A DNA stretch of 64,000 nucleotides from Cladopsammia gracilis (Eukaryota; Cnidaria; Anthozoa; Scleractinia; Dendrophylliidae), in contig JAJGOT010000033.1 of assembly GCA_022457155.1 (NCBI GenBank), forward strand, positions 563,501 to 627,500, given 5' to 3'. Under the pieces are notes generated by a model. The model saw nothing but the letters and a program-made list of their open reading frames with translations, ran no database searches and was not told the origin of the DNA. Made by a program: the position numbers and the translations under genes. This document shows positions 29,701 through 63,855 of this stretch, in pieces; position 1 is the first letter of the stretch; the number at the start of each line of letters is the position of its first letter.

Positions 29701-32058
29701 AATATATCCAAGATTTCGAGGTAAATTCTGTGTTTTGTTTAATAACACTATGCCAGTCAGGTAAACGCAAAAGGTTCCTCAAACAATGTGTGCTACAATT
29801 CTTAAAATATTTATCGTTTAAAGGGACAGTGCCCCGTCTGATATATCCTGTTTTCATGATTGTGACCAGGAGCTGGATTCATGAAGCCCTCCTTTGTTTA
29901 ATAAATAGATTCCATTTGGCCGTGTGTCTGTTCAGTTATAGATCACAGATGACGTTAAAATGTGGTAAGAACAAAAAAGTGGCACACCAGCCGCAGGCGA
30001 GTGTGTCACTGATGTTCTTACAACATTTTAACGTCTTCTGTGATCTATAACTGAACAGACACACGGCAAAATGGAATCTATTTGTTTTATACAATGAACA
30101 GAAAAGAAAAAGAGTAAAATTACGAACTTGCCTCGCAGCGCTCGACTGTTCGAAGATTTGTTCCAGTTTAGGTATTTTTCAAGTCGCCACGAACCCTTTT
30201 CGTCTTGGTTTCTTCTTTTTCTTGCTCGTAAACAGCTCCTGCTAAACATTTCTCGAGGCTTCCACTTGCTCAATCCAAAATAATCTCGCAAACATTCTCA
30301 AAATTGTGCGCCACGTTGGACAAAACAAAGCAAACAATTTTTCTATGAGGTCAGCCGTGCGTTTGTACTCTGATAGATCATAGGCAACGACCAATCACAG
30401 AGCGCGTAGTATTCAGTTCATTGTATAATAAGACTTCTCTTAAGTGTTATCATTCCAACAATAGGCTGTTGTTAAGAAACAATACTTAGGACATGTATTA
30501 ACTTAGGAGGGCTGCGTGAATCTGGCCCCAGAAGCTTGCTTTTAGTACTATTGAAGAAACGAGCATTAGTGTTTTAATCCTGATAAAACACATGCTGCAA
30601 GTTATTTGGACAACTTAAAAAAGATTCGACAAGAACCATGTGCGCTTTTGTGCAAATAGAAAAAACTTCTTGTGCTTACGAATTATTGATGAGTTTTTGA
30701 AGCTTGTTTCGTTATTTTGAAATAGAAAGAAAAATCGCCAAAAGCTATGAAAGCAAGGAAATATTAACTAAGAAATAAAATAATGGCGTAAAATAGTGAA
30801 AATTCCACAAGAATGGCAATTTTGATTTATTGACCGCCTGTCACGAAATCGTGGAAATTAAGTAAACACAATTTCGTTATTTCGGCGGGAAAGTGTTCCT
30901 TTAACGTTAATGTATGTATAATCTATAATGTATAATGTATAATGTACAATGTAATATATGTAATGTATGTATAGTGTATAATGTATAATGTATGTAATGT
31001 AATGTATGTAATGTATGTAATGTATGTAATGTATGTAATGTATGTAATGTATGTAATGTATGTATTATGTATGTAACATGGAAATTAAGTAAACACAATT
31101 TCGTTATTTCGGCGGGACAGTGTCCCTTTAACGTTAAAATATGTATAATGTATAATGTATGTAATGTAATGTATGTATAATGTATGTAATGTATGTATAA
31201 TGTATGTAATGTAATGTGTGTATAATGTATGTAACATGGAAATTAAGTAAACACAATTTCGTTATTTCGGCGGGACAGTGTCCCTTTAACGTTAAAATAT
31301 GTATAATGTATAATGTATGTAATGTAATGTATGTATAATGTATGTAATGTATGTATAATATATGTAATGTAATGTATGTATAATGTATATAACATGGAAA
31401 TTAAGTAAATACAATTTCGTTATTTCGGCGGGACAGTGTCTCTTCAATGACATTAAATGTATTCTGCAGGAGTTCAAAGTTGTACGACTGCTGTCCCAAA
31501 CCGTACGTCGACATTACGTACACCATCCACGTTCGCAGAAAGTCGCTGTTTTACACGCTGTATCTGATTGTTCCTGCGCTGATCATCACTACAATGGTCC
31601 TGATCGGCTTCTATCTGCCACCGGAGTCTGGAGAGAGGATGCAGTTAGGAATTACCGTGCTGTTGGCTATGATTGTATTCTTGCAGTTTGTTTATCAGAA
31701 CCTCCCTTCCACGTCCGATAGCGCTCCACTGCTGGGAAAGTTCTATATCATCACAATGGTCCTCATCTCCCTTTCTTTGGCAGCAACCTGCCTGGTACTT
31801 AATTACTCATATGGACACCATGCTGATGGCGAAATGCCAATATGGGTTCGATTAATCATTCTGGACTGGCTCGGAAAATTCTTTGGAGCCAGGAAAACAT
31901 TTGGCAAACGAAGGCGAATTATGACAAGTGATGACGTTTTGAAGAGAAACGAATGGAAAACAGCCGCTCACATTCTGGATAAGTTCTTTATAGCCTTCTT
32001 TGCACTGCTAATCACTATCGTGTCATTGTCTTTGTTTTTTCAAGCTCCCCACTACTAA
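20696..32058 (+). CDS. Nicotinic acetylcholine receptor-like alpha subunit (complete, 7 exons)
   Basis: Seven exons (20696-20759, 23917-24053, 24758-24802, 25546-25655, 26266-26388, 29463-29618, 31470-32058) join in consistent phases to 407 aa. This is a pentameric ligand-gated ion channel subunit of the plasma membrane. Visible marks are a signal peptide (1-22), a loop D Trp in EWINPLLTW, loop A WVPDIVLYN, a 13-residue Cys-loop between C155 and C169, loop B WTH at 176-178, and vicinal C219-C220 in YDCCPKPY, which define an alpha (principal) subunit. M1 is about 237-261, M2 269-288, M3 303-323 and M4 381-403. Glu267 before M2 predicts cation selectivity and Leu277 is the gate 9' residue. Exon sizes 45 and 110 bp match the classical receptor gene pattern. 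Oddities: the M3-M4 loop is only about 55 residues, and Gln occupies 2' and 20'. The ligand and partner subunits are unknown. AATAAA lies at 32143. Confidence 0.93.
22247..22381. mobile_element. Short MITE related to 3485-3840
   Basis: Left TTAAACGCGAAGCTGCGGTA with TATAAAAGG and right CCCCTTTTATATCGAGGG with TTTGGCTTTAA are diverged inverted termini similar to those at 3485 and 3840. A CATTTGCAT/ATGCAAATG pair lies inside. Confidence 0.55.
22645..23505. mobile_element. Palindromic element, copy A, split by a LINE fragment
   Basis: The first part is an inverted repeat (AATAGATTCCATTTTGCCGT ... ACGGCAAAATGGAATCTATT) around a GTGGCACACGAGCC core. A tail runs to CGCGTAGTATTCAGTTCATT. Copy B at 29893-30424 has the same sequence without the middle 340 bp, which marks that segment as a later insertion. 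Confidence 0.75.
22965..23303 (-). mobile_element. 5'-truncated LINE insertion
   Basis: On the minus strand the translation reads YRAIKLWNSLPRAITAA then FQK, the W-N-S-L-P block at the reverse transcriptase C-terminus of many non-LTR retrotransposons. The minus-strand 3' end is AT-rich (ATATTATATTTATATT). The insertion is absent from copy B of the host element, and TTTCTT-like sequence flanks both sides. Confidence 0.7.
23917..24053 (+). CDS. Receptor exon 2: N-terminal helix region
   Basis: The acceptor CCTCGACAG ends at 23916 and the donor GTAAGT starts at 24054. Phase 1 in and phase 0 out agree with exons 1 and 3. It encodes AAVLNDEQRLLRDLFHNY and onward, typical of the mature receptor start. 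An upstream in-frame ATG at 23889 lies in the intron and is not needed. Confidence 0.85.
24758..24802 (+). CDS. Receptor exon 3 (45 bp)
   Basis: It encodes KDNEQLLQVILYTYQ between a T-rich acceptor (TTCAACCAATTCAG) and donor GTATGG. The 45-bp size is the conserved exon 3 size of nicotinic receptor genes. Confidence 0.9.
25546..25655 (+). CDS. Receptor exon 4 (110 bp): loops D and A
   Basis: It encodes EWINPLLTWNTSDYGG through WVPDIVLYN. The acceptor is TTGTTTAG and the donor GTATTT. The length of 110 bp is the conserved exon 4 size of the family. Confidence 0.92.
26266..26388 (+). CDS. Receptor exon 5: loop E and first Cys of the Cys-loop
   Basis: The acceptor TTACATTTAG ends at 26265 and the donor GTAATC starts at 26389. 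It encodes YKTDVVIYSNGNTIWLAPAM and ends at CRLDV(R). An earlier AG at 26230-26231 would give a stop codon, which fixes this acceptor. Confidence 0.88.
28390..29340 (-). repeat. Diverged repeat, inverted relative to 34350-35470
   Basis: Shared blocks, reversed between the copies, include TTCCTCGAAGCAAGATTT / AAATCTTGCTTCGAGGAA, AAACTGATTTGGAAAT / ATTTCCAAATCAGTTT and GTCTTGTTTTGTTTACAT / ATGTAAACAAAACTG. The two copies lie on either side of receptor exons 6 and 7. The element type is unknown and no conserved frame spans it. Confidence 0.6.
29463..29618 (+). CDS. Receptor exon 6: rest of Cys-loop and loop B
   Basis: The acceptor TTGCTTTTTAAG ends at 29462 and the donor GTAAAA starts at 29619. 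It encodes YFPFDDQKC, FGSWTHDETRLDM and the strand leading to loop C. Confidence 0.92.
29822..30900. mobile_element. TTAA-flanked element in receptor intron 6
   Basis: AGGGACAGTGCCCCGTC at 29822 pairs with GGCGGGAAAGTGTTCCT ending at 30900, with TTAA at 29818-29821 and 30901-30904. Its interior matches the element at 36334-36730 (GAAAGAAA..ATCGCCAAAAG and the GACCGCCTGTCA block). It is interrupted by palindromic element copy B. Confidence 0.7.
29893..30424. mobile_element. Palindromic element, copy B
   Basis: It has the same inverted-repeat head (AATAGATTCCATTTGGCCGT, GTGGCACACCAGCC core) and the same tail ending CGCGTAGTATTCAGTTCATT as copy A at 22645. It lacks the LINE fragment and sits inside the 29822-30900 element. 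Confidence 0.75.
30853..31469. repeat. Tandem satellite built from a MITE end plus TATGTAATG repeats
   Basis: GGAAATTAAGTAAACACAAT then TTCGGCGGGACAGTGT recurs at 30853, 31080, 31238 and 31395, with periods of about 227, 158 and 157 bp. The first copy is the right end of the 29822-30900 element. Between copies are runs of GTATAATGTAT / GTAATGTAT. The last copy runs into the acceptor of receptor exon 7. Confidence 0.85.
31470..32058 (+). CDS. Receptor exon 7: loop C, M1-M4 and stop
   Basis: The acceptor TATTCTGCAG ends at 31469. One exon carries KLYDCCPKPYVDITY, all four membrane segments and the TAA stop. It directly follows a satellite made of MITE ends, so the splice site lies at the edge of repeat DNA. 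Confidence 0.94.
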
Positions 32059-38594: not shown

Positions 38595-40022
38595 TCACGA
38601 TCTTTTTCTTAATTTGACTTCAACACTAAAGCCGTTCTTAAGATTATCAAAAATGACTTTTTTACCCGTGTTATCCACCTGTACGTCCTTTTGCAGAGGC
38701 GTATACCCTAAGTCACCGTGTGCTTGAACAGAAATTATGCTTTTCTGTACAGGAGTCGTCAGAGTGACCTGTATTGTTCGCGCCCTGCTTTGTGAACGGT
38801 ACAGAAGTTCTTCACCCACGTCACCTGAATTAGATGGCGGGGAATCTGCGAGATTTAGGCTAGGAGAGCTAATACTGAGGTAGGTATACGTAGTGGTTTC
38901 CTCGACCATGATAAGACAATTCCCTCTATTGACTCCCGATACTGGGCCAACAAGACTTGTTGATTTTTTAAAAATGACATAACCATAGACGGGATAACTG
39001 AGGGTGGACCCTGTTTTCGGCGACTTCAGAAATTGGACGATGTGGGCGGTTTCATCTTTCTTCTTAACTTTGTAAAACTCACTTCCCGTTGTTTCCTGGG
39101 CCGTTGTTACGTCCGCTGATGATGCAACATACGATGCTGTCGGAATCAAGACTGCATATTCATAGTCAGAGTTAGAGGGTGAAGAGCCATGTTCAAGCCA
39201 TGCCGTACCGTATTGCTCTGATGTGGGAGTTTTTCCGTCATCTAATTTGGAGCTCTGAACCTGCACGTGGACTTTTAACATCGACTTACTGGGATTTGGT
39301 ATGTAGTAAAAGTTTCCTTGTGTGTCAGTGAGCGTTGTATAACTTCTTCCTGACATGGACGGCGTGTTTACTGGAACTAGGGTTGAACCCGTTTTTGCAA
39401 CCCCGTTTATCTTTATGGACAGTGGACTTCCACTTTTAAGCTTGTCTTGAAAGAGAGTAGTTTGGACGATCTTTCCATTAGTGTCACTTGCCGTAATCTT
39501 ACTTCCTAAACAAACCAGCAAGTTTTCAAAAAAGAAAACCGATTTTTTAAACTTAAATTTGATATCTTTTCTCCAATCCTCTAATCCATAAGAAGGCTGT
39601 TTAAAGTCCATGCCAAAAATGCCATTTTTTAAGGTGCTCGTACCCTTAAACGTGAGACCTCCAGCTAGGCGTCGTTTGTTGTAAAACCTTCCTTTCTTCA
39701 TTTTTAAGTCATCTATATTCGTACTTCCTAAGGCGATGGTTGTTGCTCCAGGGACTTTGGCCCAATCCCACCCGTTATCGACGTCATGAACGTTAAGGCT
39801 CGCTTCGTTGTTGGCAATCTGGAGAGCACCGTGACTGGCAAAAATTCCGAAAACATTTTGTTTTCCCGAATTTTCATAATCCCAAATAAACCAATTAAAG
39901 CCCTTAGCCGTCGCAGCCCAGTCTTTGCGTCTATGGATTGATAGAACGGCGAAGTTCTTGGACCAGTGTCCTTCAGGGGAGGGTTCTGCAGATTTACTTT
40001 GCGATGTAGCAATGGTTTTTAC
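38595..40022 (-). CDS. Lyase gene 1, exon 5: PL8 beta domains and stop
   Basis: The acceptor TTTCTCTGTAG ends at 40023. The 1428-base exon starts VKTIATSQSKSAEPS and carries LSIHRRKDWAATAKG, WDYENSGKQ, NGWDWAKVPGATTIALGS and QTTLFQDKL, ending LRKRS and TGA at 38597-38595. All are conserved blocks of the central and C-terminal beta domains of chondroitin ABC lyases. Confidence 0.94.
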   Translation of the reverse strand, partial: VKTIATSQSKSAEPSPEGHWSKNFAVLSIHRRKDWAATAKGFNWFIWDYENSGKQNVFGIFASHGALQIANNEASLNVHDVDNGWDWAKVPGATTIALGSTNIDDLKMKKGRFYNKRRLAGGLTFKGTSTLKNGIFGMDFKQPSYGLEDWRKDIKFKFKKSVFFFENLLVCLGSKITASDTNGKIVQTTLFQDKLKSGSPLSIKINGVAKTGSTLVPVNTPSMSGRSYTTLTDTQGNFYYIPNPSKSMLKVHVQVQSSKLDDGKTPTSEQYGTAWLEHGSSPSNSDYEYAVLIPTASYVASSADVTTAQETTGSEFYKVKKKDETAHIVQFLKSPKTGSTLSYPVYGYVIFKKSTSLVGPVSGVNRGNCLIMVEETTTYTYLSISSPSLNLADSPPSNSGDVGEELLYRSQSRARTIQVTLTTPVQKSIISVQAHGDLGYTPLQKDVQVDNTGKKVIFDNLKNGFSVEVKLRKRS

Positions 40023-43000
40023 CTACAGAGAAACAATGACCTAGATTAATATTTTTTGTAGTCACTATCTGTCTTCTCATTGGCTTAGAACCTACAGTTA
40101 ATTCTTCTGGAAATAAGTTCACCCTACGGATTATACTCAAATCTGCTAGCAGGTTAGTGAATAATCTGTAGATTAGGGTGGTGCGCACAGTGCATATATT
40201 TCCAATAGCAATCTCAAGTTCATGAGTGGCGAGTGGTCGCTTTGCACACAACCAAGTAAAAACATGGCTCGTCGATTCGCTTCTTCAACCGAACAAGAAA
40301 TTGAGAAATTGCTGGACAATAAAGAATCGAAAAACAAAAAGGATTGACAAAACATGGGATGGTGAATGGCAGCTTTGCACGCAGCTAAGGAATCAAATTC
40401 TTGTTGAAAATAATTAATTGTTTCCAGTGCGATAATGTGCTTGTCGTTATTCTCTATAAAACAATGTATAATATAATAATTATTAGATTTGCTGTTTGGG
40501 ATATTCGGAATAATCAAGGTCCCGGTGTGATCAGTCTCAGCCTCCAGCTTCGGCTGGTAACACTCCCGGGGGGGGGGGGGGGGGGGTACAAAGTTCCAAA
40601 GTTTTGTACGGGGATGCTCCGCCCCGAGGTTCAAACCCTTACCCTTTCATATACCGTTTTTGACAGAAAAGGTACCCCTTTCATATACCTTTCATTGAAA
40701 ATGGTACCCCTTTCATATACCTTTTAATGAAAATGGTACTCCTTTCATATAGCCTTTACGTACGTCTGTTTGATTTATTTTGAAAGGCCCTTTTTATTAG
40801 ACTTAAATGGCAGTTTCCCTACCTTTTTATGCCTCATCGGCGTGTTTTCGGTACCCTTTCCTATTCTTCGTGAAATCCCTACCCTTTCATATACTTCAAC
40901 TCGTGAAATCACGACCCTTTCATATACCTCCAGCCTCAAAAAGGTACCCCTTTCGGGCGGAGCATCCCCGTATAGCCCATTATAGGGAGTACCCCCCCCC
41001 CCCCCCCCGGGGTAACACTTTCCTTGACCTAGCTTCATTATACCGGACATCTCATTTATTGTACGTTAATGATGACATGAACGCGTCATATTTAAATAAT
41101 AGTTATTGCCCAGTTTTAATCAAAAGAGATTTGCTAAAGCAAATGCATGCAGAAATTAAAGAGAGCTAAATTTATTGCTCGACGTTTCGGGGTCGTCATG
41201 ACGCCATTCTCAAGAGTAAAAAAAATATAGCAAAGCGAATATTTAAGTTGGCTAGAGCTAAAGGTTACACAGGTTACATATATAAATGTATAAACTACGC
41301 ATTGGTTGTTGACAATAGAGGTTGTGATGCAGGATATGTGGGCTATACGCTTGGGCACCTGCACGAGCGCGTGGACGGTCACAAAAGAAAGTTCGTCCTC
41401 CATTTACAAACACTAACAGCAAGAACACAATGGTCAGATCAGTACCACAGCGTCTTTTAGAACAGTTTCACGTGCTTGCTTAATGTACCAGCAAATTTGA
41501 TTGCCTCATTAAAGAGATGCTATTCATACGCAAACTCAAACCAGAACTGAACGTGGAAACTGCGACTCAATTCGCGCTAAAGTGTTTGTTTAGCCATCAA
41601 TTTAGGCCCCGTCCACACTTATCCGGATATTTTTGAATCCGCAACTTTTTTGTTGCGGATTGGCCTTCCGTCCACACGTATCCGGCGAATTCGGGCAAAT
41701 ACGATTCAAATACGCTCCGTGTGGACGCAACAAAAAAGTTGCAGATTCAAAAATATCCGGATACGTGTGGACGGGGCCTTAGTATGTACATTTTAGCTCT
41801 CGATCTAGCCTACTTAAATATTCGCTTTGTTAAATATATTTTCTTTACTCTTGATAATGGTATAATGACGACTACGAAACGTCGAGCAATAAATATTAGA
41901 ACTAGAATGTTTACTTTCTAACGAGATTTTTTTCATTTTTCAAGACTGAAACAAATGGTTGGTTGAGTTTAAAATATATAATAAAATGCTTGTAAATAGC
42001 TGCTAACTTGAAAGAAGTTTTTACTTCACTGTTAGGGACAAAATCGCTTAGAGAGAATTAGTGTTTTCGTAAAAGACGGTGGTAGATGAAAGTTCAAACG
42101 GATCATTTACTAAGGTTTCACTCGTAGAGATTCAGCGTTGTAAAGAAATGAATTAAAAAATAAATAATGCGTAATCATAGATCATTACACCCTCAAACGT
42201 TGAACTTTAGATTAACATTGAGCCTTGAAAATTCATAGATAAGACAAGCAGTACTTACTGCTTCCATGATATCCAGAGATCCCAAACTGTTATAATAGTA
42301 CTTCTTTTTGTATTTTCCTGTTTCTAAGAAACTGTTCACGGATGGATCGTTATATAAGCGCAGAAACATTTCTGGTTGATTCATATCGGTCACACCGGTC
42401 ACACTTATTCCTGTTGGGATCACGGAATCTGTTTTAACCTTTGGATGGGAAACGCTTATGTAAGCATAGCCTGGTAATACTGTCTTGAGAATAGCCTTGT
42501 TGGTATAATTTGGGAAACGTCCATTGACACTGTTTGGAGTAGAATACTTGACACACATTAGACGTAGGGATTCAAGTCCTCGCCTGATGTTGTTCACTGA
42601 TGATGTCGATAAGGCGAATTCAGTTCCTCCAAGAAGGTATTGGACGAAAGCGGCGGTATGTAACGCTTGTGGCACATAGGCTGATCCATAAAATGCTTTG
42701 TGGTGATGTCCTACGAAGTCAGGTTTGATGACTCCTCCAAGTCCTTCATTCACATCCAAGGCATTGTTCAGCCACCGAACTAAGGCTTCCATGTCCCGAA
42801 TTTTGGCTTTGACTTCATTATCATTATCACTTGGCATCACCAGCACGATTATCAGCCTGAACAACGTCAGCGTGATCATACGGTCAGCAGTCGTTCCTTT
42901 GAATTCGAACGTTGGTGATTGATAAATCTCTCCAAAGTCATTGTACCATTTGGCAGTTTTTATTAAATCCTGTAATCTGCTCTTGTTTGAAGAAGTGCTC

Positions 43001-46000
43001 AACGAGTCACTAAGAAGGAACAGAGAGTGCATAAATCCAGCACCATCTCTGTTCATTTCGTGGTCCAACGATCCAAGGCCACTTCCATCTGCAAATCCTT
43101 GCTGTTTTACAAAATTAAGAAGGTCATTAATTTTGTTTAGTCGAACGAGGTTTAGAGTGTTTATCGCACTAACCACTTGGGATTGGGTTAGGGTTCCAGA
43201 ACTGGGAAGGTAACCTTTAAACTGGTTTTTCATGTTAGCATTTTCACCTGCAATAGCTGTATATGCTTTGTCTTTCCGTGCGGCGTCGCCAGAGTTAAGG
43301 TTTGAAAGTTGGGCCCTGGCGAATTCTGTTATTTCCTTTCGCCGGCTTCGTATATAATATTCCAGTGACAAAGGTAGAACAAGTTTTTCCAGGATAGTTC
43401 CAATCTTCTTTGGATATTTGCAGTTTCTGCAAAACAAAGGTGGTCCGACGACTTTTCCACCATTAAACTCTAGGCCATCATATTCTTCGTGAGCTTTTTT
43501 AACAATATTTAATAACGATTTCCATCGTTTTCCGAGAAAGCTGCTACTTGTGAAGCTGGATGACGTTTTCGTTTCGTCGCAGTACCAGTTCTTGAGACGG
43601 GCTTCGATGAACTCCAAACTCTTTCTCTTTAAAGGATCTATTGTAGTCGAGGGCAACGCGGGAACGGCTTTTTGACTCCACTTGTAGGTCTGTTGCCAAA
43701 ACTTAGACAAGTCATATATTTTCAGACCAAACGGCCTAATGGGAGGAACTATTTTATCACGGGACTGTTTTGTCATGCTCTTTTCAAACTGGAGTAAATC
43801 TATGTAGATTGTATCTGCTCCGCTCAGCGCAAACTCAACTTCGTTGATTTTAGTCCTTCTAGCTATGCTAGCTGTCAGCCTGCATTCCTTAAATTTGACC
43901 CAAATTCCTCTCCATCCTTCAAAATTAAGATTGGCTTGGAATCTGCCAACAGTACTACTGCTGCCAGAATGCTTATACTTGTATTCAACTGTTAAGGTTT
44001 TCCCTGTCGATGAAGTCGATTTGTAGAACCAAACCTTGACTCCACCATTTCTAAGCCAACTATTAGGAATGGGAGAGGGTGAAAGTTGTAACTTTAGCGT
44101 CGAGGCACCAGTGGCTACCCATTTTAAAGACTTTGTTCCTTTCTTGACAGTTACTTTGTCAGTGGATAGTGTTACTGTACCGGAAGATGGCTTAAAGCAC
44201 GATTCCTGATTTCCAACCTCAAAATCAAATAACTGATTGTGGCCACAAGACAGTAAAACTAAAGCATAAAAAGCATAAAAAAATAATAATTAACCTACGG
44301 TTTTAATCCAATATGAGAACATTAATTAAATATTTTCTATGAATGTGAACATATGAAAATCATATATTTGAACTGCGGATAAACATGAGTGAAATTTGTG
44401 ATCCTCGCAGTTGAAAAAGCAACCTGAAAAAAAAATTCATGCATGAAGCGGGATTCCAACCTTTGACCTTGCGATACCGGCACAATGCTCTATCTACTGA
44501 GCAATCAAGCCACATGGATAGATGGTCAATTGTGAGTTTGTAATATACCCGATGATAGTTGATATATATGAATGTGAATATATGAATATGAGCATTTTAC
44601 CGATATCGCACGGTCATGTGTTCGAATCCCGTTCAAGCCTGGATTTTTTTCAGTTTCCTTTTTAACTGCTTATAATTTGAAAGCACACTGCGAGGATCAC
44701 AAGTTTCACTCATGTTTATCCGCAGTTCAAATATATGATTTTCATATATTCACGTTCATATATATTAACTATCATCGGGTATATTACGAACTCACAATTG
44801 ACCATCTCATGTGGTTTGAAAGCTCAGTGGATAGAGCATTGCACCGGTATCGCAAGGTCATGGGTTCGAAATCCATTCAGGTCTGAATTTTTTTCAGGTT
44901 GTTTTTCAACTGCTTAAGGTTAAAACACACTACGCGGATCACAAATTCCACTCTTAAATAATTTATGTCTACCAAAATGTATTGCGAGCAACGATAGAGG
45001 TTTCGTATGATACGAAACCTTAATTTTTGAGGGCTTCTTCGTGTGTTGCTATAGAATCCTTCTTAATCTGAGTCACAATCCTTGTAAAGTAATGAATACG
45101 GGAAGCGTAATAATCGAGTTATATCAGACGGAAGCAAATGAATAGATTTTCACTTTTTCATTGTTTTTTCACCGGCTGTTAACTTTCATTGGTAATTCCG
45201 CTGACCAGTGTATAATATTTCGAGCTCTGGAGGATTTTAAATGGAATTTTTAGACTTAAGAAAACGCTACGGCACGGTAAATGTTGATTTTAAATGTGGG
45301 AAGTTTGGCTGCCATTTGTAAAAGTTCAATAAGGTCAAATTTTGTTTTGACGAGTTATAAAAAACCACGTGTTAGCGTGACACAAATACGTACAAGTATT
45401 GTTTGAAATAAGAGAGAAAACTTGATGATTGTGTTCTTTAAACCTCGGATGTACAAGTGGGGGGAGGGAGTGGATGCCACGCCCTTAAGGTTTTTCTCCG
45501 AGATTTTATGAGCATTGACGGTTAGCATATGCCATCTTCAGTAGCTCTTCGCTGATCCTTGAGACGCATTGTGGTAAAGTTTGGCGACAATCGGTTGCTA
45601 TGGTAACGTGCTTTGTCGTCATAGACAGCATGAGACCATTTTTGAATAAAAATAGGTTTTTCACAATTTTTACCAAAAACAGAAAACTGTTTAATTGTAT
45701 TATACTTTTTTTGCGATAACGTTTTTTCGACATGATTATTTTTTGTTTTACAGCACAAAGAGGAGGACTAAAATAATGAAGTTATGCAAAAATAAAGATA
45801 GGTCACCAAGCTCGTTTAGGTGAAAACAACCTCTTATTTACTGAGGGAACTGAATCCTCAAAGGAAACCCTATTGCTTCGGAGTGCGTGCGCCAGAAGTG
45901 GAAACTAGTAAGCAGAACTTCATAGCGTAACACGAACACGGCGTTCAAGAATAAAATTCAACGAATTTATAGAAACCGTAAATTACATTTTCTAAGCATA

Positions 46001-48045
46001 AGGCAACAAGCCACATAATCAATCATCCCCTGAAAAGATTCTTACCGATTTCGGTGTCAGATACGGGCAATATTCCAGTTCATCTCGTGTAATTCTTTGT
46101 TTTGTGGAAACAAACCTCAGTTTTGCTTAACAATGATTTGTTAGTCCAAATCACACTCTCCAATTTCAAGTATTCAAACAGAGTAAGTTCAATGTTGTAG
46201 TGATTTTCTCCTAACTTAAATATTAAAACCTTTGCAAATTAAAAAAGAATGTAAGATAATGCGAATTCATAATTGCTTCCAAAGGCTCGCTTATGGTTAG
46301 AGTATTAAAGAAACATTAATCAGAAAGACTATACCTCCTGCTGCACCCCCTGAGCCTGGCGATGGTATCCCTGTCATCCCTATGTAGAAAGAAATTTATC
46401 CTATCGTTAATTTTAGTAACCTCCAAAGCTTCTATTCCCACAAACAACCCCAGGTACAATAAAATGAACACTATTTAAATGACATGAAATGACAATAGCA
46501 ACTAGGAGTAGATCTCATAATTTAGTGAAAGTGATTTAGTCATTTAGTCATTTAGTGAAATTGGTCATTAAATTCTATAAACGGAAAAAATAATTAGGTT
46601 ACTTGAAATTCTCTATATAAATTAGGATAACCTTAATTTATTCCTCTGTCTTTTTTTAGCCACTTACCTTTGGGCATTTCACAAATATAAGGTTTCTTCC
46701 AACGTACCGGATCAAGATCGTTAAAGAGTCCTTTACTTGGAGATGGAAAATCTTTGGACATTACAGCGACGTTTCCGTCTCCAGATGGCTGATTCCATTG
46801 CCATTTTTTAATGGTCAGCGGCTCTCCACTTACCCACCTCCAGTCCCCCTCCTTTTTCAAGCCTATGTGCCATTCGTTTACTCCCGGGAGTGTTATCTTT
46901 TGAATCTCGTTATTAATGTGCTCCCATTCTTCAGGCGTTTCCATGGAGACTAGATCGCCTCCCTGTCTTTTACAGCTTTGCTGGTTTTCATCCCATGTGT
47001 TGCCGCATGCGGAAATTGTGTAGCATGAATTAGCATAGCAACTGCGGCCAACGCCTAAAGAGAGTAACAAGAGTACATCAAATATTGGTTACTATATGCA
47101 CAGCACTCCCAACATTGGGATACAATTGGTGTTTGTATTTTTACATTGTCTCACTTATAACGCCAACCACTTATTCAACATATTCAACTACTTGAGGGTC
47201 ACTGGTTTGTCAGCGCAAGCTGTTATGTGTTTACCCTCTGCAAATAAAAAAGTTATTTATATTTGACGTGTGCGTAGGCATATATTTCTTTAATTATATT
47301 ATGTTATGTTATGTTATGTTATGTTATGTTATGTTATGTTATGTTATGTTATGTTATGTTATGTTATGTTATGTTATGTTATGTTATGTTATGTTATGTT
47401 ATGTTATGTTATATTATATTTTATTATATTATATATCCTAACCTATGATTATGATTATGATTCGTATGGTTTTTCGAAATAGCATTTGGCTTATTTGAAC
47501 TTTTACTAATGACAGCGAAGTTTCACACATTTAAACAACAATATCAACATGCTGTAGCGTTTTGCTAAGTACTGAAAAATTCATTTGATGCTCTCCAGAG
47601 TTCGAACCTCAGTATATGTACTGGTCAGCGAAATTACCAAAAAAGGTTTACAGCCAAGTGCTTAAGCATTCGAGGAAACGAACGGGCGAGTGATCGTGTG
47701 ACTTTTGATCCCACTGCTATACCTCGTTCGTTACGCTTACGTTACGAGTTAAAATTATATATTAAACTCTTTACAATAAATTTTGCCGGTTTGGGCATTC
47801 TATAAGGACAAGGTAACGAGGTGACGAAGTTTTTGATGAGATTGCTTTTTATATTTACTGTAGTATATATGTATGTTCTAGTTTTCGATATTTTAATCAG
47901 TTATAAACAGACTGTTTTATTATATATTGTGCCTATGCTTGGCCGAGTGGTGACGCAAAAAGGGTTACCTACCCCGAGCACTAGTAAAAGGAAGGATGAA
48001 GCAGATGCAGCATAACAGTCGAAGCACCATTAACATTTTTCCCAT
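38595..48045 (-). CDS. Secreted C-type lectin / chondroitin ABC lyase-like (PL8) fusion, gene 1
   Basis: Five exons in order 48045-47973, 47054-46668, 46379-46335, 44258-42259 and 40022-38595 give about 1310 aa with matching phases (1, 1, 1, 0). Domain order: signal peptide (1 to about 22), C-type lectin-like domain (about 26-154), Gly/Ser/Pro linker (155-169), chondroitinase N-terminal sandwich (about 175-330), alpha-helical catalytic domain (about 335-835), and PL8 beta domains (836-1310). PL8 enzymes cut chondroitin, dermatan or hyaluronan by beta-elimination. Candidate active residues, by analogy with chondroitinase ABC, are His686-688, Tyr696 in HHHKAFYGSAY, Arg749 in NGRFPN and Glu885 in IWDYE. 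Family blocks GWDWAKVPGATTI, KKSVFFFENLLVCLGS and YEYAVL are clear. It is likely secreted and binds and degrades glycosaminoglycan-like material. Whether the lectin part binds sugar is open. No frameshift or stop is seen. Confidence 0.92.
40264..40347 (+). pseudogene. Fragment resembling Crypton/ZMYM2-type N-terminus (copy 1)
   Basis: A 27-codon stretch beginning MARRFASSTEQEIEKLLDNK resembles the recurrent 'T-E-x-E-I-x-x-L-L-x-x-K' start of DUF3504/Crypton-like proteins common in cnidarian genomes. It ends in a stop with nothing recognisable after it. It lies in the last intron of lyase gene 1, opposite strand, and is also present in gene 2 (61111-61188), so it predates the duplication. The assignment is tentative. 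Confidence 0.4.
40565..41011. mobile_element. hAT-like MITE with poly-G/poly-C ends, 8-bp TSD (copy 2)
   Basis: CCCGGGGG... with GTAC starts at 40565, and GTACCCC... with CCCGGG ends at 41011. The flanks repeat GTAACACT at 40557-40564 and 41012-41019. The interior matches 2787-3225 in reverse. The other duplicate near 61385-61420 lacks it, so insertion followed the duplication. Confidence 0.88.
41115..41895 (+). mobile_element. Penelope-like element fragment with GIY-YIG endonuclease remnant
   Basis: The plus-strand translation contains CDAGYVGYTLGHLHERVDGH, the signature of the GIY-YIG endonuclease of Penelope-like retroelements. A shifted frame near 41495-41590 follows with LIKEMLFIRKLKPELNVET, the usual end of that domain. 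Inverted arms 41171-41262 and about 41790-41893 share TTATTGCTCGACGTTTCG, like inverted Penelope LTR ends. The fragment is degenerate and interrupted by a MITE. It is absent from the same intron of lyase gene 2. Confidence 0.8.
41605..41778. mobile_element. MITE with GGCCCCGTCCACAC termini, TTA flanks
   Basis: GGCCCCGTCCACACTTATCC starts at 41605, and GGATACGTGTGGACGGGGCC ends at 41778. TTA flanks both sides (41602-41604, 41779-41781). The inner hairpin arms ATATTTTTGAATCCGCAAC and complement fill most of it. It is nested in the Penelope fragment. Confidence 0.82.
42259..44258 (-). CDS. Lyase gene 1, exon 4: PL8 N-terminal and catalytic helical domains
   Basis: This 2000-base exon runs from acceptor ATGCTTTAG (phase 1) to donor GTAAGT at 42258 (phase 0). 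It begins LLSCGHNQLFDFEVGNQESC. An N-terminal sandwich contains FEGWRGIWVKF and IYIDLLQF, followed by the alpha/alpha toroid with HHHKAFYGSAY and NGRFPNYTN. It ends at LGSLDIMEA. Compared with gene 2 it has a two-codon insertion (an extra YK near residue 257), which keeps the frame. Confidence 0.93.
44335..44965. mobile_element. Cluster of three tRNA-derived SINE units, absent from copy 2
   Basis: Three related units are seen: minus strand about 44400-44530, plus strand about 44580-44725 (head truncated), and plus strand about 44815-44960. The last has an A box AGCTCAGTGGATAGAG and a B box GGTTCGAAATCC, followed by TTTTTTTCAGGTTG tail DNA. The first has GCTCAGTAGATAGAGC and GGTTGGAATCC on the minus strand. 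The inverted units could fold on each other. In duplicate copy 2 the flanks are joined directly near 63935. Confidence 0.7.
44966..46334 (-). other. Rest of lyase gene 1 intron 3
   Basis: It holds a copy (about 45442-45790) of the element at 48659-49238, with shared AAAGTTTGGCGACAA and TTTTTGAATAAAAAT blocks. The remaining AT-rich DNA has no recognisable feature. Confidence 0.6.
45442..45790. mobile_element. Diverged, truncated copy of the 48659-49238 MITE
   Basis: ACCTCGGATGTACAAGTG, GGTTTTTCTC, GGTAAAGTTTGGCGACAATC and TTTTTGAATAAAAATAGG match the element at 48659 in the same order. The right terminus is not recognised. Confidence 0.6.
46335..46379 (-). CDS. Lyase gene 1, exon 3: 45-bp linker
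   Basis: The acceptor TTTCTACATAG and donor GTATAG bracket 45 bases encoding GMTGIPSPGSGGAAG. It is phase 1 on both sides and joins the lectin exon to the lyase exon without a frame break. Confidence 0.75.
46668..47054 (-). CDS. Lyase gene 1, exon 2: C-type lectin-like domain
   Basis: The acceptor TTACTCTCTTTAG ends at 47055 and the donor GTAAGT starts at 46667; both introns are phase 1. The exon encodes a compact CTLD: SCYTISACGNTWDENQQSC, then DLVSMETPEEW, WHIGLKK, WRWVSGEPL and a terminal YICEMPK. The Ca-site motif is QPS rather than EPN or QPD, WND is FND, and the penultimate cysteine is missing. Classical calcium-dependent sugar binding is therefore doubtful. Confidence 0.88.
47055..47972 (-). 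other. Lyase gene 1 intron 1
   Basis: It contains the (ATGTT)n microsatellite and otherwise AT-rich DNA. A 64-codon plus-strand open frame at 47821-48015 overlaps the signal exon on the opposite strand and is not a gene. Confidence 0.6.
47301..47410. repeat. Pentanucleotide microsatellite (ATGTT)n
   Basis: About 22 perfect ATGTT units, then ATATT variants. It lies in lyase gene 1 intron 1. Confidence 0.95.
47973..48045 (-). CDS. Lyase gene 1, exon 1: signal peptide
   Basis: Starting at 48045 the exon encodes MGKMLMVLRLLCCICFILPF then TSAR and the first base of a Gly codon. The donor GTAGGT follows (phase 1). An acceptor-like TTCTTTACAG ends 8 bases before the ATG, so a leader exon may exist upstream. 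It is too short to be seen as an ORF and was found by phase and signal-peptide character. Confidence 0.75.
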
Positions 48046-59492: not shown

Positions 59493-60920
59493 TCACGATT
59501 TTAATCTTAATTTGATTTCAACACTAAAGCCATTCTTAAGATTTTTGAAAACAATTTTTTTACCCGTAGCATCCACCGCCACATTAGGCCCATATGTGTC
59601 TGGGTTACCGTGCGTTTGAACACAGCTGGGGCTCTGATCTACACGGGACCTCAAAGTGACCTCTATTTCTCGCTCTCTGCTTGACGAACTATACAGAAGT
59701 GCTTCACCCACGTCACCTGAATTAGATGGCGGGGAATCTGCGAGATTTAGGCCAGGAGAGCTAATGCTGAGGTAGGTATAAGTAGCGGTTTTCTCGACCA
59801 TGATAAGACAATTCCCTGTATTGACTCCCGCTACTGGGCCAACAAGACTTGTTGATTTTTTAAAAATGACATAACCATAGACGGGATAACTGAGGGTGGA
59901 CCCTGATTTCGGCGACTTCAGAAATTGGACGATATGGGCGGTTTCATCTTTCTGCTTAACTTTGTAAAACTCACTTCCCATTGTTTCCTGGGCCGTTGTT
60001 ATGTCCGCTGATGATGCAACATACGATGCTGTCGGAATCAAGACTGCATATTCATAGTCAGAGTTAGAGGGTGAAGAGCCATGTTCGAACCATGCTGTAC
60101 CGTATTGCTCTGATGTGACAGTTTTTCCGTCATCTAATTTGGAGCTCTGAACCTGCACGTGGACTTTTAACAGAGATTTACTGCGATTTGGTATGTAATA
60201 AAAGTTCCCTTTTGTGTCAGTGAGCGTTGTATAACTTCTTCCTTGCATGGACGGCGTTTTTACGGGAACTAGGGTTGAACCCGTTTTTGCATCTTCGTTT
60301 ATCTTAATTGACAAGGAGCTTCCACTTACAAGCTTGTCTTGAAAGAGAGTAGTTTGGACGACTTTTCCATCAGTGTTACTTGCCGTAATGTCACTTCCTA
60401 AGCAAACCAGCAGGTTTTCAAAAAAGAATACTGATTTTTTGAACTCAAAGTCAATATCTTTTCTCCAATCTTTTTTTTTCAATCCATAATTTGGTTGTTT
60501 AAAGTCCATGCCAAAAATTCCATTTTCTAAGGTGCTCGTACCCTTAAACGTGAGACCTCCAGCCAGGCGTCGTTTGTTGTAAAACCTTCCTTTCGTCATT
60601 TTTAAGTCATCTATATCTGTACTTCCTAAGGCGATGGTTGTTGCTCCAGGGACTTTGGCCCAATCCCACCCGTTATCGACGTCATGAACTTCAAGGCTCG
60701 CTTCGTTGTTGGCAATCAGGAGGGCACCGTGGCTGGCGAACATTCCGAAAACATTTTGCTTTCCCGAATTTTCATAATCCCAGAGAAAACTATTAAAACC
60801 CTTAGTCGTCACAGCCCAGTCTTTGCGTCTATGGATTGATAGAACGGCGAAGTTCTTGGACCAATGTCCTTCAGGGGAAGGTTCGGCAGATAATTGTTTC
60901 GTTGTAGCAATTTGTTTTAC
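59493..60920 (-). CDS. Lyase gene 2, last exon: beta domains and stop
   Basis: 1428 bases after the acceptor TTTCTGTATAG, starting VKQIATTKQLSAEPS and ending LRLKS with TGA at 59495-59493. It is the same size as its paralogue. Confidence 0.93.
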   Translation of the reverse strand, partial: VKQIATTKQLSAEPSPEGHWSKNFAVLSIHRRKDWAVTTKGFNSFLWDYENSGKQNVFGMFASHGALLIANNEASLEVHDVDNGWDWAKVPGATTIALGSTDIDDLKMTKGRFYNKRRLAGGLTFKGTSTLENGIFGMDFKQPNYGLKKKDWRKDIDFEFKKSVFFFENLLVCLGSDITASNTDGKVVQTTLFQDKLVSGSSLSIKINEDAKTGSTLVPVKTPSMQGRSYTTLTDTKGNFYYIPNRSKSLLKVHVQVQSSKLDDGKTVTSEQYGTAWFEHGSSPSNSDYEYAVLIPTASYVASSADITTAQETMGSEFYKVKQKDETAHIVQFLKSPKSGSTLSYPVYGYVIFKKSTSLVGPVAGVNTGNCLIMVEKTATYTYLSISSPGLNLADSPPSNSGDVGEALLYSSSSREREIEVTLRSRVDQSPSCVQTHGNPDTYGPNVAVDATGKKIVFKNLKNGFSVEIKLRLKS

Positions 60921-63855
60921 CTATACAGAAACAATATCCCAGATTACAAGACATTAAAGTCACTATCTGTTTTCTCATCGGCTAAGAGCCTACAGCTAAT
61001 TCTGGAAATCAGCTTACCCTGCATATTATTCACTATAATCTGCTAGCAGATAAGTAAATAATCTGTAGATTGTGCGCGCAATGCCGCTTTGCACACAGTC
61101 AAGTAAAAACATGGCTCGTCGATTCGTCTCTTTAACCGAGCAAGAAATTGATAAATTGCTGGACGATAAAGACTGGGAAACACAATAAGATCGGCAAACA
61201 TATGCTGGTGAATGGCAGCTTTGCACACAGCCAAGTAATCAAAGAAAATGTTCAATTTCTTGTTTGGAAAATAATAAACTGTTTTCAGTGCGTTTGTCGT
61301 TATTGCCTTTAAACAATGTATAATAAAACAATATTAGATTTGGTGTTTGTGATATTCGGAATAATCAGTCTCTGTTAGTGTGATCAGCCTCAGACATACA
61401 CTTACCTTGACCTTGATTATTCCGGATATCACATTCATTATAAGTTAATGTTGATATGAACGCGTGATATTTAAATAATAGTTATTGCCTAATACAATAT
61501 TTAGAACACTTCCAGAACTAAAATGTTTACTTTACAACGAGGTTTCTTTTTTCATTTGTCACGACTGAAACAAATGGTTGGTTGAATTTAAAATATGTAA
61601 TGAAATACTTATAAATAGCTGCTAACTTGAAACAAGTTATAATTTCACTGTTAGGGACAAAATCGCTTGGAGGAGATTTAAGAAGAGTTTTGGTAAAGGA
61701 CAGTGGTGGAGAAAAGTTAAAATTGGTCATTTAATATGGTTTCACTCGTGGAGATTCGGCGTCATTTTAGAAATGAAAAAAAAAATAGTGCGTAATCATT
61801 GGTCATTACATGCTTAAACGTTGATTATTAGATTAACATCGTGCCTTGACGATTCACAGACAAGACAAGCGGTACTTACTGCTTCCATGATATCCAGAGA
61901 TCCCAAACTGTTATAATAGTACTTCTTCTTGTATTTTCCTGTTGCTAGGAAACTGTTCACAGATGGATCGTTATATAAGCGCAGAAACATTTCTGGTTGA
62001 TTCACTTCGGTCACACTAATTCCTTTTGGGATCACAGAATTGCCTAGAACCTGTGCATGGGAAACGCTGATGTAAGCATAGCCTGGTAATGCTGTCTTGA
62101 GAATAGCATTGTTGGTATAATTTGGGAAACGTCCATTGACACTGTTTGGAGTAGAATACTTGACACACATAAGACGTAGCGATTCGAGTCCTCGTCTGAT
62201 GTTGTTGACTGATGATGCTGATAAGGCGAATTTAGTTCCTCCAAGAAGGTATTGAACGAAAGCGGCGGTATGTAACGCTTGTGGCACATAGGCTGATCCA
62301 TAAAATGCTTTGTGATGATGTCCTACGAAGTCAGGTTTGATCATTCCTCCAAGTCCTTCATTCACATCCAAGGCGTTGTTCAGCCACCGAACTAAGGCAT
62401 CCATGTCCCGAATTTTGGCTTTGACTTCATTATCATTATCACTTGGCATCACCAGCACGATCATTAGCCTGAACAACGTCAACGTGATCATACGGTCAGC
62501 AGTCGTTCCTTTGAATTCGAATGTTGGTGATTGATAAATCTCTCCAAAGTCATTGTACCATTTGGCAGTGTTAATTAAATCCAGTAATCTGCTCTTGTTT
62601 GAAGAAGTGCTCAACGAGTCACTAAGAAGGAACAGAGAGTGCATAAATCCAGTACCATCTCTGTTCATTTCGTGGTCCAACGATCCAAGGCCACTTCCAT
62701 CTGCAAATCCTTGCTGTTTTACAAAATTAAGAAGGTCATTAATTTTGTTTAGTCGGACGAGGTTGAGAGTGTTTATCGCACTAACCACTTGGGATTGAGT
62801 TAGGGTTCCAGAACTGGGAAGGTAACCTTTAAACTGGTTTTTCATGTTAGCATTTTCACCTGCAATAGCTGTATATGCTTTGTCTTTCCGTGCGGCGTCG
62901 CCAGAGTTAAGGTTTGAAAGTTGGGCCCTGGCGAATTCTGTTATTTCCTTTCGCCGACTTCGTATATAATATTCCAGTGACAAAGGTAAAAGAATTTTTT
63001 CCAGGATAGTTCCAATCTTCTTTGGATATTTGCAGTTTCTGCAAAACAAAGGTGGTCCGACGACTTTTCCACCATTAAACTCTAGGCCATCATATTCTTC
63101 GTGAGCTTTTTTAACAATATCTAATAACGATTTCCATCGTTTCCCGAGAAAGCTGCTACTTGTGAAGCTGGATGACGTTTTCGTTTCGTCGCAGTACCAG
63201 TTCTTGAGACGGCCTTCGATGAACTTCAAACTCTTTCTCTTTAAAGGATCTATTGTCGAGGGCGACGCGGGAACGGCTTTTTGGCTCCACTTGTAGGTCT
63301 GTTGCCAAAAGGCAGTCAAACCATACAGACCATACGGCCCAATTGGAGGAACTATTTTATCACGGGACTGTCGTGACATGTTCTCTACAAACTGGAGTAA
63401 ATCTATGTAGATTGTATCTGCTCCGCTCAGTGCAAAGTCAACTTCGTCGATTCTAGTCCCTGTTGCTATTTTGGCTGTCAGCTTGCATTCATTAAATTTG
63501 ACCCAAATTCCTCTCCATCCTTCAAAGTTAAGATTGGCTTGGAATCTGCCAACAGTACTACTGCTGCCAGAATGCTTATATTCCACAGTCAAGGTTTTCC
63601 CTGTCGATGAAGTCGATTTGTAGAACCAAACCTTGACTCCACCATTTCTAAGCCAACCATTAGGAATGGGAGAGGGTGAAAGTTGTAACTTTAGCGTCGA
63701 GGCACCAGTGGCTTCCCATTTTAAAGACTTTGTTCCTTGCTTGACAGTTACTTTGTCAGTGGATAGTGTTACTGTACCGGAAGATGGCTTAAAGCACGAT
63801 TCCTGATTTCCAACCTCAAAATCAAATAACTGATTGTGGCCACAAGGCAATGAAG
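59493..63855 (-). CDS. Chondroitin ABC lyase-like (PL8) gene 2, 5' part outside window
   Basis: Two exons, 63855-61880 and 60920-59493, join in phase 0 and encode about 1134 residues of a PL8 lyase closely similar to gene 1 in every block. These include HHHKAFYGSAY, NGRFPNYTN, the WDYENSGKQ glutamate and NGWDWAKVPGATTI. The first visible exon starts after an acceptor (TTTTTCCCCTTTAG) in phase 1, exactly as exon 4 of gene 1. A phase-1 upstream exon is therefore required; by analogy it should be a linker and C-type lectin exon beyond 64000, but this is not seen. The TTG codon at 63850 is not a start. No stop or frameshift interrupts it. Exon 5 is the same length as in gene 1, while the catalytic exon is 24 bases shorter (net). 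Its C-terminal tail differs most (SRVDQSPSCVQ). Confidence 0.92.
61111..61188 (+). pseudogene. Fragment resembling Crypton/ZMYM2-type N-terminus (copy 2)
   Basis: MARRFVSLTEQEIDKLLDDK then a stop, in the lyase gene 2 intron on the opposite strand, corresponding to 40264-40347. It is closer than copy 1 to the usual motif. It is a remnant and not a working gene. Confidence 0.4.
61880..63855 (-). CDS. Lyase gene 2, catalytic exon
   Basis: 1976 bases, phase 1 in and phase 0 out (donor GTAAGT at 61879). It begins SLPCGHNQLFDFEVGNQESC and ends LGSLDIMEA. It carries the N-terminal sandwich and the helical catalytic domain. Confidence 0.92.

Follow-up and report, generated by a model that had tools for sequence, protein, structure and literature searches.

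Does a stony coral make a single secreted protein in which a C-type lectin domain is joined to a chondroitin ABC-type lyase and, if so, from where did the two parts come? Animals are usually thought to degrade chondroitin by hydrolases, not by lyases. The question is raised by a gene, here called gene A, that lies at 48045-38595 on the minus strand of the window, by which we mean the whole stretch of 64,000 nucleotides of Cladopsammia gracilis DNA that was analysed. An earlier note on this DNA had proposed such a fusion from the letters alone. Here we examine the gene model, its paralogues in the same genome and its relatives in other organisms.

Results

Structure of gene A

The five exons that the earlier note had joined without a stop are all present at their minus-strand positions, with GT...AG introns throughout, exon phases of 1-1-1-0 and a joined frame of 1310 aa followed by a stop. 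The coding part of exon 1 (47973..48045) encodes a hydrophobic leader, MGKMLMVLRLLCCICFILPFTSAR|G, and ends in the phase-1 donor GGG|GTAGGT; the leader, of 24 aa in a hydropathy scan, is a candidate N-terminal signal peptide. Since ACAG|GTAAAGGC just 5' of exon 1 resembles a 3' splice site, a 5'UTR exon may precede it. Exon 2 (46668..47054, phase 1-1) encodes a C-type lectin domain of 129 aa, and exon 3 (46335..46379, phase 1-1) is a 45-bp Pro/Ser/Gly linker, GMTGIPSPGSGGAAG, with the donor GAG|GTATAG. On a simple splice score the lectin donor is strong (8.6) and the linker donor weak (0.4). Exon 4 (42259..44258) carries Lyase_N and Lyase_catalyt, including His688, Tyr696 and Arg749 in the numbering of the joined protein, and exon 5 (38595..40022) the Lyase_8 super-sandwich with Glu885, the C-terminus and the stop codon TGA. 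The stretch from the exon 4 acceptor back to the preceding in-frame stop contains no ATG, and the start of exon 4 is therefore most likely supplied by an upstream exon ending in phase 1.

With the results of a Pfam scan, the predicted protein reads, in order, hydrophobic leader, Lectin_C (PF00059, 48.3 bits, E 1.9e-12), Pro/Gly linker, Lyase_N (61 bits), Lyase_catalyt (143.5 bits) and Lyase_8 (104.6 bits), each Pfam match being well above its curated cut-off. We regard gene A as a real and probably functional new domain architecture.

The first intron contains a run of a five-base repeat (AACAT on the minus strand) at 47280-47440. In the last intron before the lyase, at 44400-44900, repeats resembling tRNA-derived short interspersed elements were seen by eye in both orientations; in the aligned intron, paralogue B (described below) is without approximately 640 bp corresponding to window positions 44332-44973. 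Elsewhere in the window, an exon on the plus strand (31405-32055) encodes a neurotransmitter-gated ion channel transmembrane region (PF02932, 103.9 bits).

The lyase and its family

Lyase_N, Lyase_catalyt and Lyase_8 in this order, above their cut-offs, constitute the profile set of a PL8 chondroitin ABC-type lyase, and by sequence the lyase part matches the solved structures 7eip, 1hn0 and 2q1f with E-values from 5.5e-45 to 2.7e-44. Residues His501, Tyr508, Arg560 and Glu653 of 1hn0, which we take to be the catalytic residues of chondroitin ABC lyase I, align with conserved residues of the coral family, in the window protein His688, Tyr696, Arg749 and Glu885. These positions were counted on printed alignments, of which the single-sequence alignment offsets the Tyr by one column and the profile alignment matches it. 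Across the 18 anthozoan-side rows of our lyase tree the four residues are kept in 18 (H), 18 (Y), 16 (R) and 18 (E) cases; all 38 bacterial-side rows retain H, Y and R, and 37 of them retain E, the remaining row having a gap. A structural model of the Oculina homologue P0001, which is 66% identical to the window lyase, has a pLDDT of 89. Its top Foldseek hit is 2q1f (E 8.9e-54) and its best matches are 2q1f, 7eip and 1hn0, which corresponds to an alpha toroid plus beta super-sandwich fold, the model being that of the homologue and not of the window protein.

Searching a protein database with the lyase returned at least 63 proteins among the 7991 scored candidates sharing most words. Named relatives come from Oculina, Montipora, Stylophora, Pocillopora, Desmophyllum, Actinostola, Nematostella and Paramuricea and, more distantly, from bacteria; NCBI records name those of Oculina, Montipora, Stylophora, Pocillopora, Nematostella and Paramuricea 'chondroitin sulfate ABC exolyase(-like)'. 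The lyase family spans corals, anemones and octocorals as a multi-gene family. No Lectin_C annotation was found among the 63 lyase relatives matched in this search, and some of the N-termini read appear incomplete or odd. In the C. gracilis genome (878 Mb) we obtained 24 Lyase_catalyt and 27 Lyase_8 matches, counted as approximately 20 loci. Most of these loci lie in two tandem arrays on contigs C956 and C1271, into which 14 of the 24 Lyase_catalyt matches fall. The copies on contig C121 match only piecewise, some with an internal stop, and so may be intron-split or broken.

In a quick, unrooted tree the 18 anthozoan-side rows (four of them assigned by tree position only) form one group against the 38 bacterial-side rows (SH-aLRT 100), the latter consisting of 31 of the 79 retained loci and seven database proteins taken as bacterial. 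A second tree was built with 14 of the 17 lyase loci read (paralogue D, the last copy on C1271 and the copy on C153 were left out), 28 of the 49 higher-ranked database matches and all 14 taken as bacterial. The anthozoan homologues group apart from bacteria in both trees. Given that no sister to them was resolved among the 31 of 79 bacterial loci and seven database proteins, and hence no donor, we infer rather than observe that the lyase was acquired by horizontal transfer. A literature search found no paper whose title or abstract start deals with chondroitin ABC lyases of animals or cnidarians, and the parts of PMC4425862, PMC7853314, PMC8592570 and PMC6040629 available to us hold nothing about animal PL8 lyases.

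Of the earlier proposal, a secreted lectin plus chondroitin ABC-type lyase stands as the best reading and is backed by the paralogues; the lyase itself is not a one-off and belongs to an anthozoan gene family. The novelty therefore lies in the lectin cassette: judged from the sequences compared, the lectin is the new component, and the lyase family was already known in anthozoan records.

Paralogues with and without the lectin

We read 17 lyase loci (gene A and L009-L024), in most cases together with 6 to 8 kb of sequence 5' of the lyase exon, and four further loci (L025-L028) that have a lectin but no lyase match. Six of the 17 lyase loci, namely A, B, D and E on C956 and I and Lu on C1271, are preceded by a lectin exon in the same orientation. 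Of the genome's 11 close lectin exons, five have no adjoining lyase match (one each on C1005, C1036 and C1271, and two on C956 at 1.91 Mb). A DNA search placed the leader exon at five genome sites, three of them in A, B and E, one in lyase F, which has no lectin, and one in the lectin locus at 1.91 Mb. Weaker copies of it precede the lectin-less lyases C and C546. By homology, the leader exon is common to lectin-bearing and lectin-less lyases. The 1.91-Mb locus (L025, C956:1911647-1915040) reads leader-lectin-linker-lectin, with no lyase in the 15 kb read; it lies more than 1 Mb from the array, and its leader is 90% identical to that of gene A.

Paralogue B lies partly in the window, also on the minus strand, with equivalents of exon 4 (61871..63850, 92% amino-acid identity) and exon 5 (59493..60920, 84%). 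Its leader and lectin exons lie past the window end, in L009, where the lectin donor reads GA instead of GT, so that B may skip the lectin. Paralogue E (L012) has the corresponding set of exons, which join stop-free from the leader into the lyase over the 260 residues examined. Comparison of E with its neighbour F is the most informative. The lyase regions of the two are 98.9% identical and the leader side is collinear at 80-93% identity, with 93% beside the break; at the break, a stretch of 2,381 bp carrying lectin and linker in E corresponds to 13 bases in F. This comparison places the lectin inside a lyase gene, with the leader exon on one side and the lyase exons on the other, and the difference could be either a gain in E or a loss in F. 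Reading 13 kb of paralogue D, including 6.3 kb 5' of its lectin, yielded an interrupted lyase exon and no leader exon. Given the mutated donor in B and these findings in D, A and E are left as the clean copies of the four on C956 that bear a lectin.

On C1271, our leader scans, one setting of which recovered five of seven known leader exons, placed no leader exon at the lectin-lyase neighbours I and Lu. The C1271 lectins share intron sequence among themselves, while their lyases differ; between I and Lu, dS is 0.067 for the lectin and 1.06 for the lyase. At these two loci, lectin and lyase could be separate genes.

The lectin and linker exons

A structural model of the window lectin exon has the C-type lectin (CTLD) fold (pLDDT 86.9), with SPL-1, lithostathine and mincle among the high-ranking matches. 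The calcium/sugar site of classical C-type lectins consists of EPN or QPD, together with WND. At these positions the window lectin has QPS and FND and the family consensus is EPS and FND, so that the classical residues are only partly kept. Searching the genome with the lectin exon gave at least 86 matches, with 150 of 242 candidates scored; among those scored, ten matches besides the window exon are 68-84% identical over near-full length. Compared with the neutral expectation, fewer amino-acid changes than expected separate A and E (P=0.0006), B and E (P=0.0004) and A and C1036 (P=0.0016), as is also the case for E and C1036. Constraint is not clear for A and B (P=0.10) or for I and Lu (P=0.05). 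In seven of 55 lectin pairs dN/dS exceeds 1 (for example, 1.22 for X1-X2 and 1.51 for I-C1271_136). All seven include X1, X2 or C1271_136, which are lectins not accompanied by a lyase, and rest on few synonymous changes.

The linker exon was found for nine of the 11 close lectin exons, the window copy and eight elsewhere in the genome, and the sequence read showed none beside the C1005 lectin or beside the second of the two lectins at 1.91 Mb. Linker lengths are 45, 63, 75, 87, 63, 57, 54, 57 and 75 bp; every one is a multiple of three, and all nine exons have an open phase-1 frame. The chance that all five length changes relative to the 63-bp form would be frame-neutral is approximately 0.004. 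We considered that the short linker exon of gene A might be an artefact and rejected this on account of its eight homologous copies, all of which keep the frame.

Source of the cassette

No lectin-lyase protein was found among the 7991 scored lyase candidates and the 209 lectin-region candidates of our database searches, and so, as far as these searches show, the fusion is known only from this genome. The lectin-region search returned two proteins of suitable length among the 209 candidates, P0064 from Oculina and P0065 from Pocillopora, both of which join a CTLD to CAP domains. The genome of C. gracilis has a similar neighbourhood on C1036, where, all on the plus strand, a lectin exon (219126) is flanked by a CAP exon on its 5' side (211202) and by CAP pieces on its 3' side (225589 and 226563); this lectin too has the linker exon. 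In a lectin tree, which used 45 of 68 database proteins, the eleven close lectins of this genome and two database rows form one group (99/93). Within it the lyase-linked lectins are not one clade, as three changes are needed, and C1005 and C1036 branch outside, the latter weakly (96/76). As CAP-lectin proteins of other corals carry the same lectin, phase-1 exon shuffling is suggested, and the cassette appears to have come from a CAP-lectin gene and to have moved more than once.

Discussion

Taken together, we consider it likely that gene A encodes one secreted protein, a lectin, a linker and a complete PL8 lyase assembled by exon shuffling, in which the lectin serves as a glycan-binding module. 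A symmetric phase-1 cassette of the CAP-lectin type, made up of the lectin and linker exons, would have entered the phase-1 intron between leader and lyase of an existing anthozoan lyase gene, and copies of the cassette would then have spread and decayed inside the tandem array. We infer from the sequence the single transcript, the secretion, the direction of shuffling, the activity and the targeting.

The other readings differ mainly in how the lectin relates to the lyase product. The cassette could be facultative or decaying, so that the main product is leader plus lyase, the lectin and linker are skipped and the fusion protein is minor or absent. Skipping would stay in frame, because every junction from the leader exon to the first lyase exon is in phase 1; the GA at the lectin donor of B, the lack of the cassette in F despite a lyase 99% like that of E, and the low linker donor score of A (0.4) are all in keeping with it. 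However, the lectin donors of A and E are canonical, that of A being strong (8.6), the lectin is under purifying selection in the A-E and B-E comparisons, and the linker is in frame in nine out of nine copies found. We therefore regard a mainly lectin-free product as improbable. Two separate genes, a small secreted lectin followed by a downstream lyase with a leader exon of its own that our scans missed, would accommodate the five of 11 close lectin exons without an adjoining lyase match and the situation on C1271, where the lectins share intron sequence and are close to each other in I and Lu (dS 0.067) and the lyases differ (dS 1.06). We scanned for such leader exons by the presence of an ATG, a hydrophobic core and a phase-1 donor. 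One scan gave a weak 13-residue candidate in the linker-lyase interval of gene A; two scans with other settings gave none in the stretch from lectin to lyase at A, B or E. One of these settings recovered five of the seven leader exons known from homology, missing those of loci C and C546, and some of the sequence read consists of N (2,500 of 10,000 bases in L009, which holds unit B, and 1,501 in L018). An alternative leader exon in the 46.3-44.3 kb intron of gene A is judged unlikely. Moreover, A, B and E have their leader 5' of the lectin, and this leader is a homologue of the one in lyase F, where no lectin is present; it is also hard to see what a gene for a lectin would gain from ending in a phase 1-1 linker exon. 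Two genes at the site of gene A thus seem very unlikely to us, more so than skipping.

Finally, the mainly bacterial nature of this enzyme class and the N-bases in L009 could raise the suspicion of an assembly error or of bacterial contamination. Gene A has introns and sits in a 2.6-Mb contig among tandem copies, and homologues of it, which the trees separate from bacteria, occur in several independent records of anthozoans. On the strength of these homologues bacterial contamination was rejected, and error or contamination is hardly credible.

A lectin-lyase of this kind would cleave chains of the chondroitin/dermatan type, possibly also of the hyaluronan type, by beta-elimination through its His-Tyr-Arg-Glu set, as bacterial enzymes do. 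The lectin would act like a carbohydrate-binding module and tether the enzyme to surface glycans, for instance those of mucus, matrix, prey or a microbial coat. Cnidarians are among the animals with dermatan sulfate epimerases, according to the part of PMC8006597 available to us, which makes substrates in the coral's own tissue plausible. Alternatively, the substrates might be found in prey, mucus or microbial coats. Digestion, remodelling of matrix or mucus, and defence, as put forward in the earlier note, are possible roles. A bolder and rather doubtful idea is that the cassette moves repeatedly within approximately 20 horizontally acquired lyase genes, providing an exon-in/exon-out repertoire aimed at glycans, with possible immune or symbiosis effectors against microbial or algal sugar coats.

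Anthozoans, then, carry a lyase family of bacterial type, and one member appears to have been fitted with an animal lectin by phase-1 exon shuffling. Given that near-identical neighbours with and without the cassette exist, it becomes possible to test directly how a domain fusion arose and what corals use glycosaminoglycan lyases for. Chondroitinases are of interest in nerve-repair research, and gene A might encode a natural lectin-targeted chondroitinase.

Comparison with known systems

The closest biochemical counterparts are the PL8 enzymes chondroitin sulfate ABC lyase I of Proteus vulgaris (1hn0/7eip) and the chondroitinase of Bacteroides thetaiotaomicron (2q1f), which resemble the window lyase in region order, in catalytic residues and in the fold of the homologue model. 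They differ in being bacterial, in having 18-22% identity to the coral lyase (measured in the structural match of the Oculina homologue) and in that no lectin stretch aligned. Among eukaryotes, choanoflagellates have chondroitin sulfate lyases that are candidate horizontal transfers (PMC7971027). Like the coral lyases these are eukaryotic with a proposed bacterial origin, the likeness being one of description; a lectin fusion is unmentioned in the part of PMC7971027 available to us. A stony-coral protein family that structurally resembles chondroitin B lyase, a different lyase, is described in the accessible part of PMC13044578. The anthozoan 'chondroitin sulfate ABC exolyase-like' proteins belong to the same family as the window lyase, with up to 66% identity, but in five close coral relatives (P0001, P0002, P0004, P0005 and P0006) the leader, as judged by eye, directly abuts the lyase. 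Conversely, the CAP-lectin proteins of Oculina (P0064, with three CAP, two trefoil and one CTLD) and Pocillopora (P0065, with two CAP, one trefoil and one CTLD) share the lectin, with CTLDs that are 69% and 63% identical to that of the window and are followed by a Pro-rich linker, but theirs is joined to CAP domains and not to a lyase.
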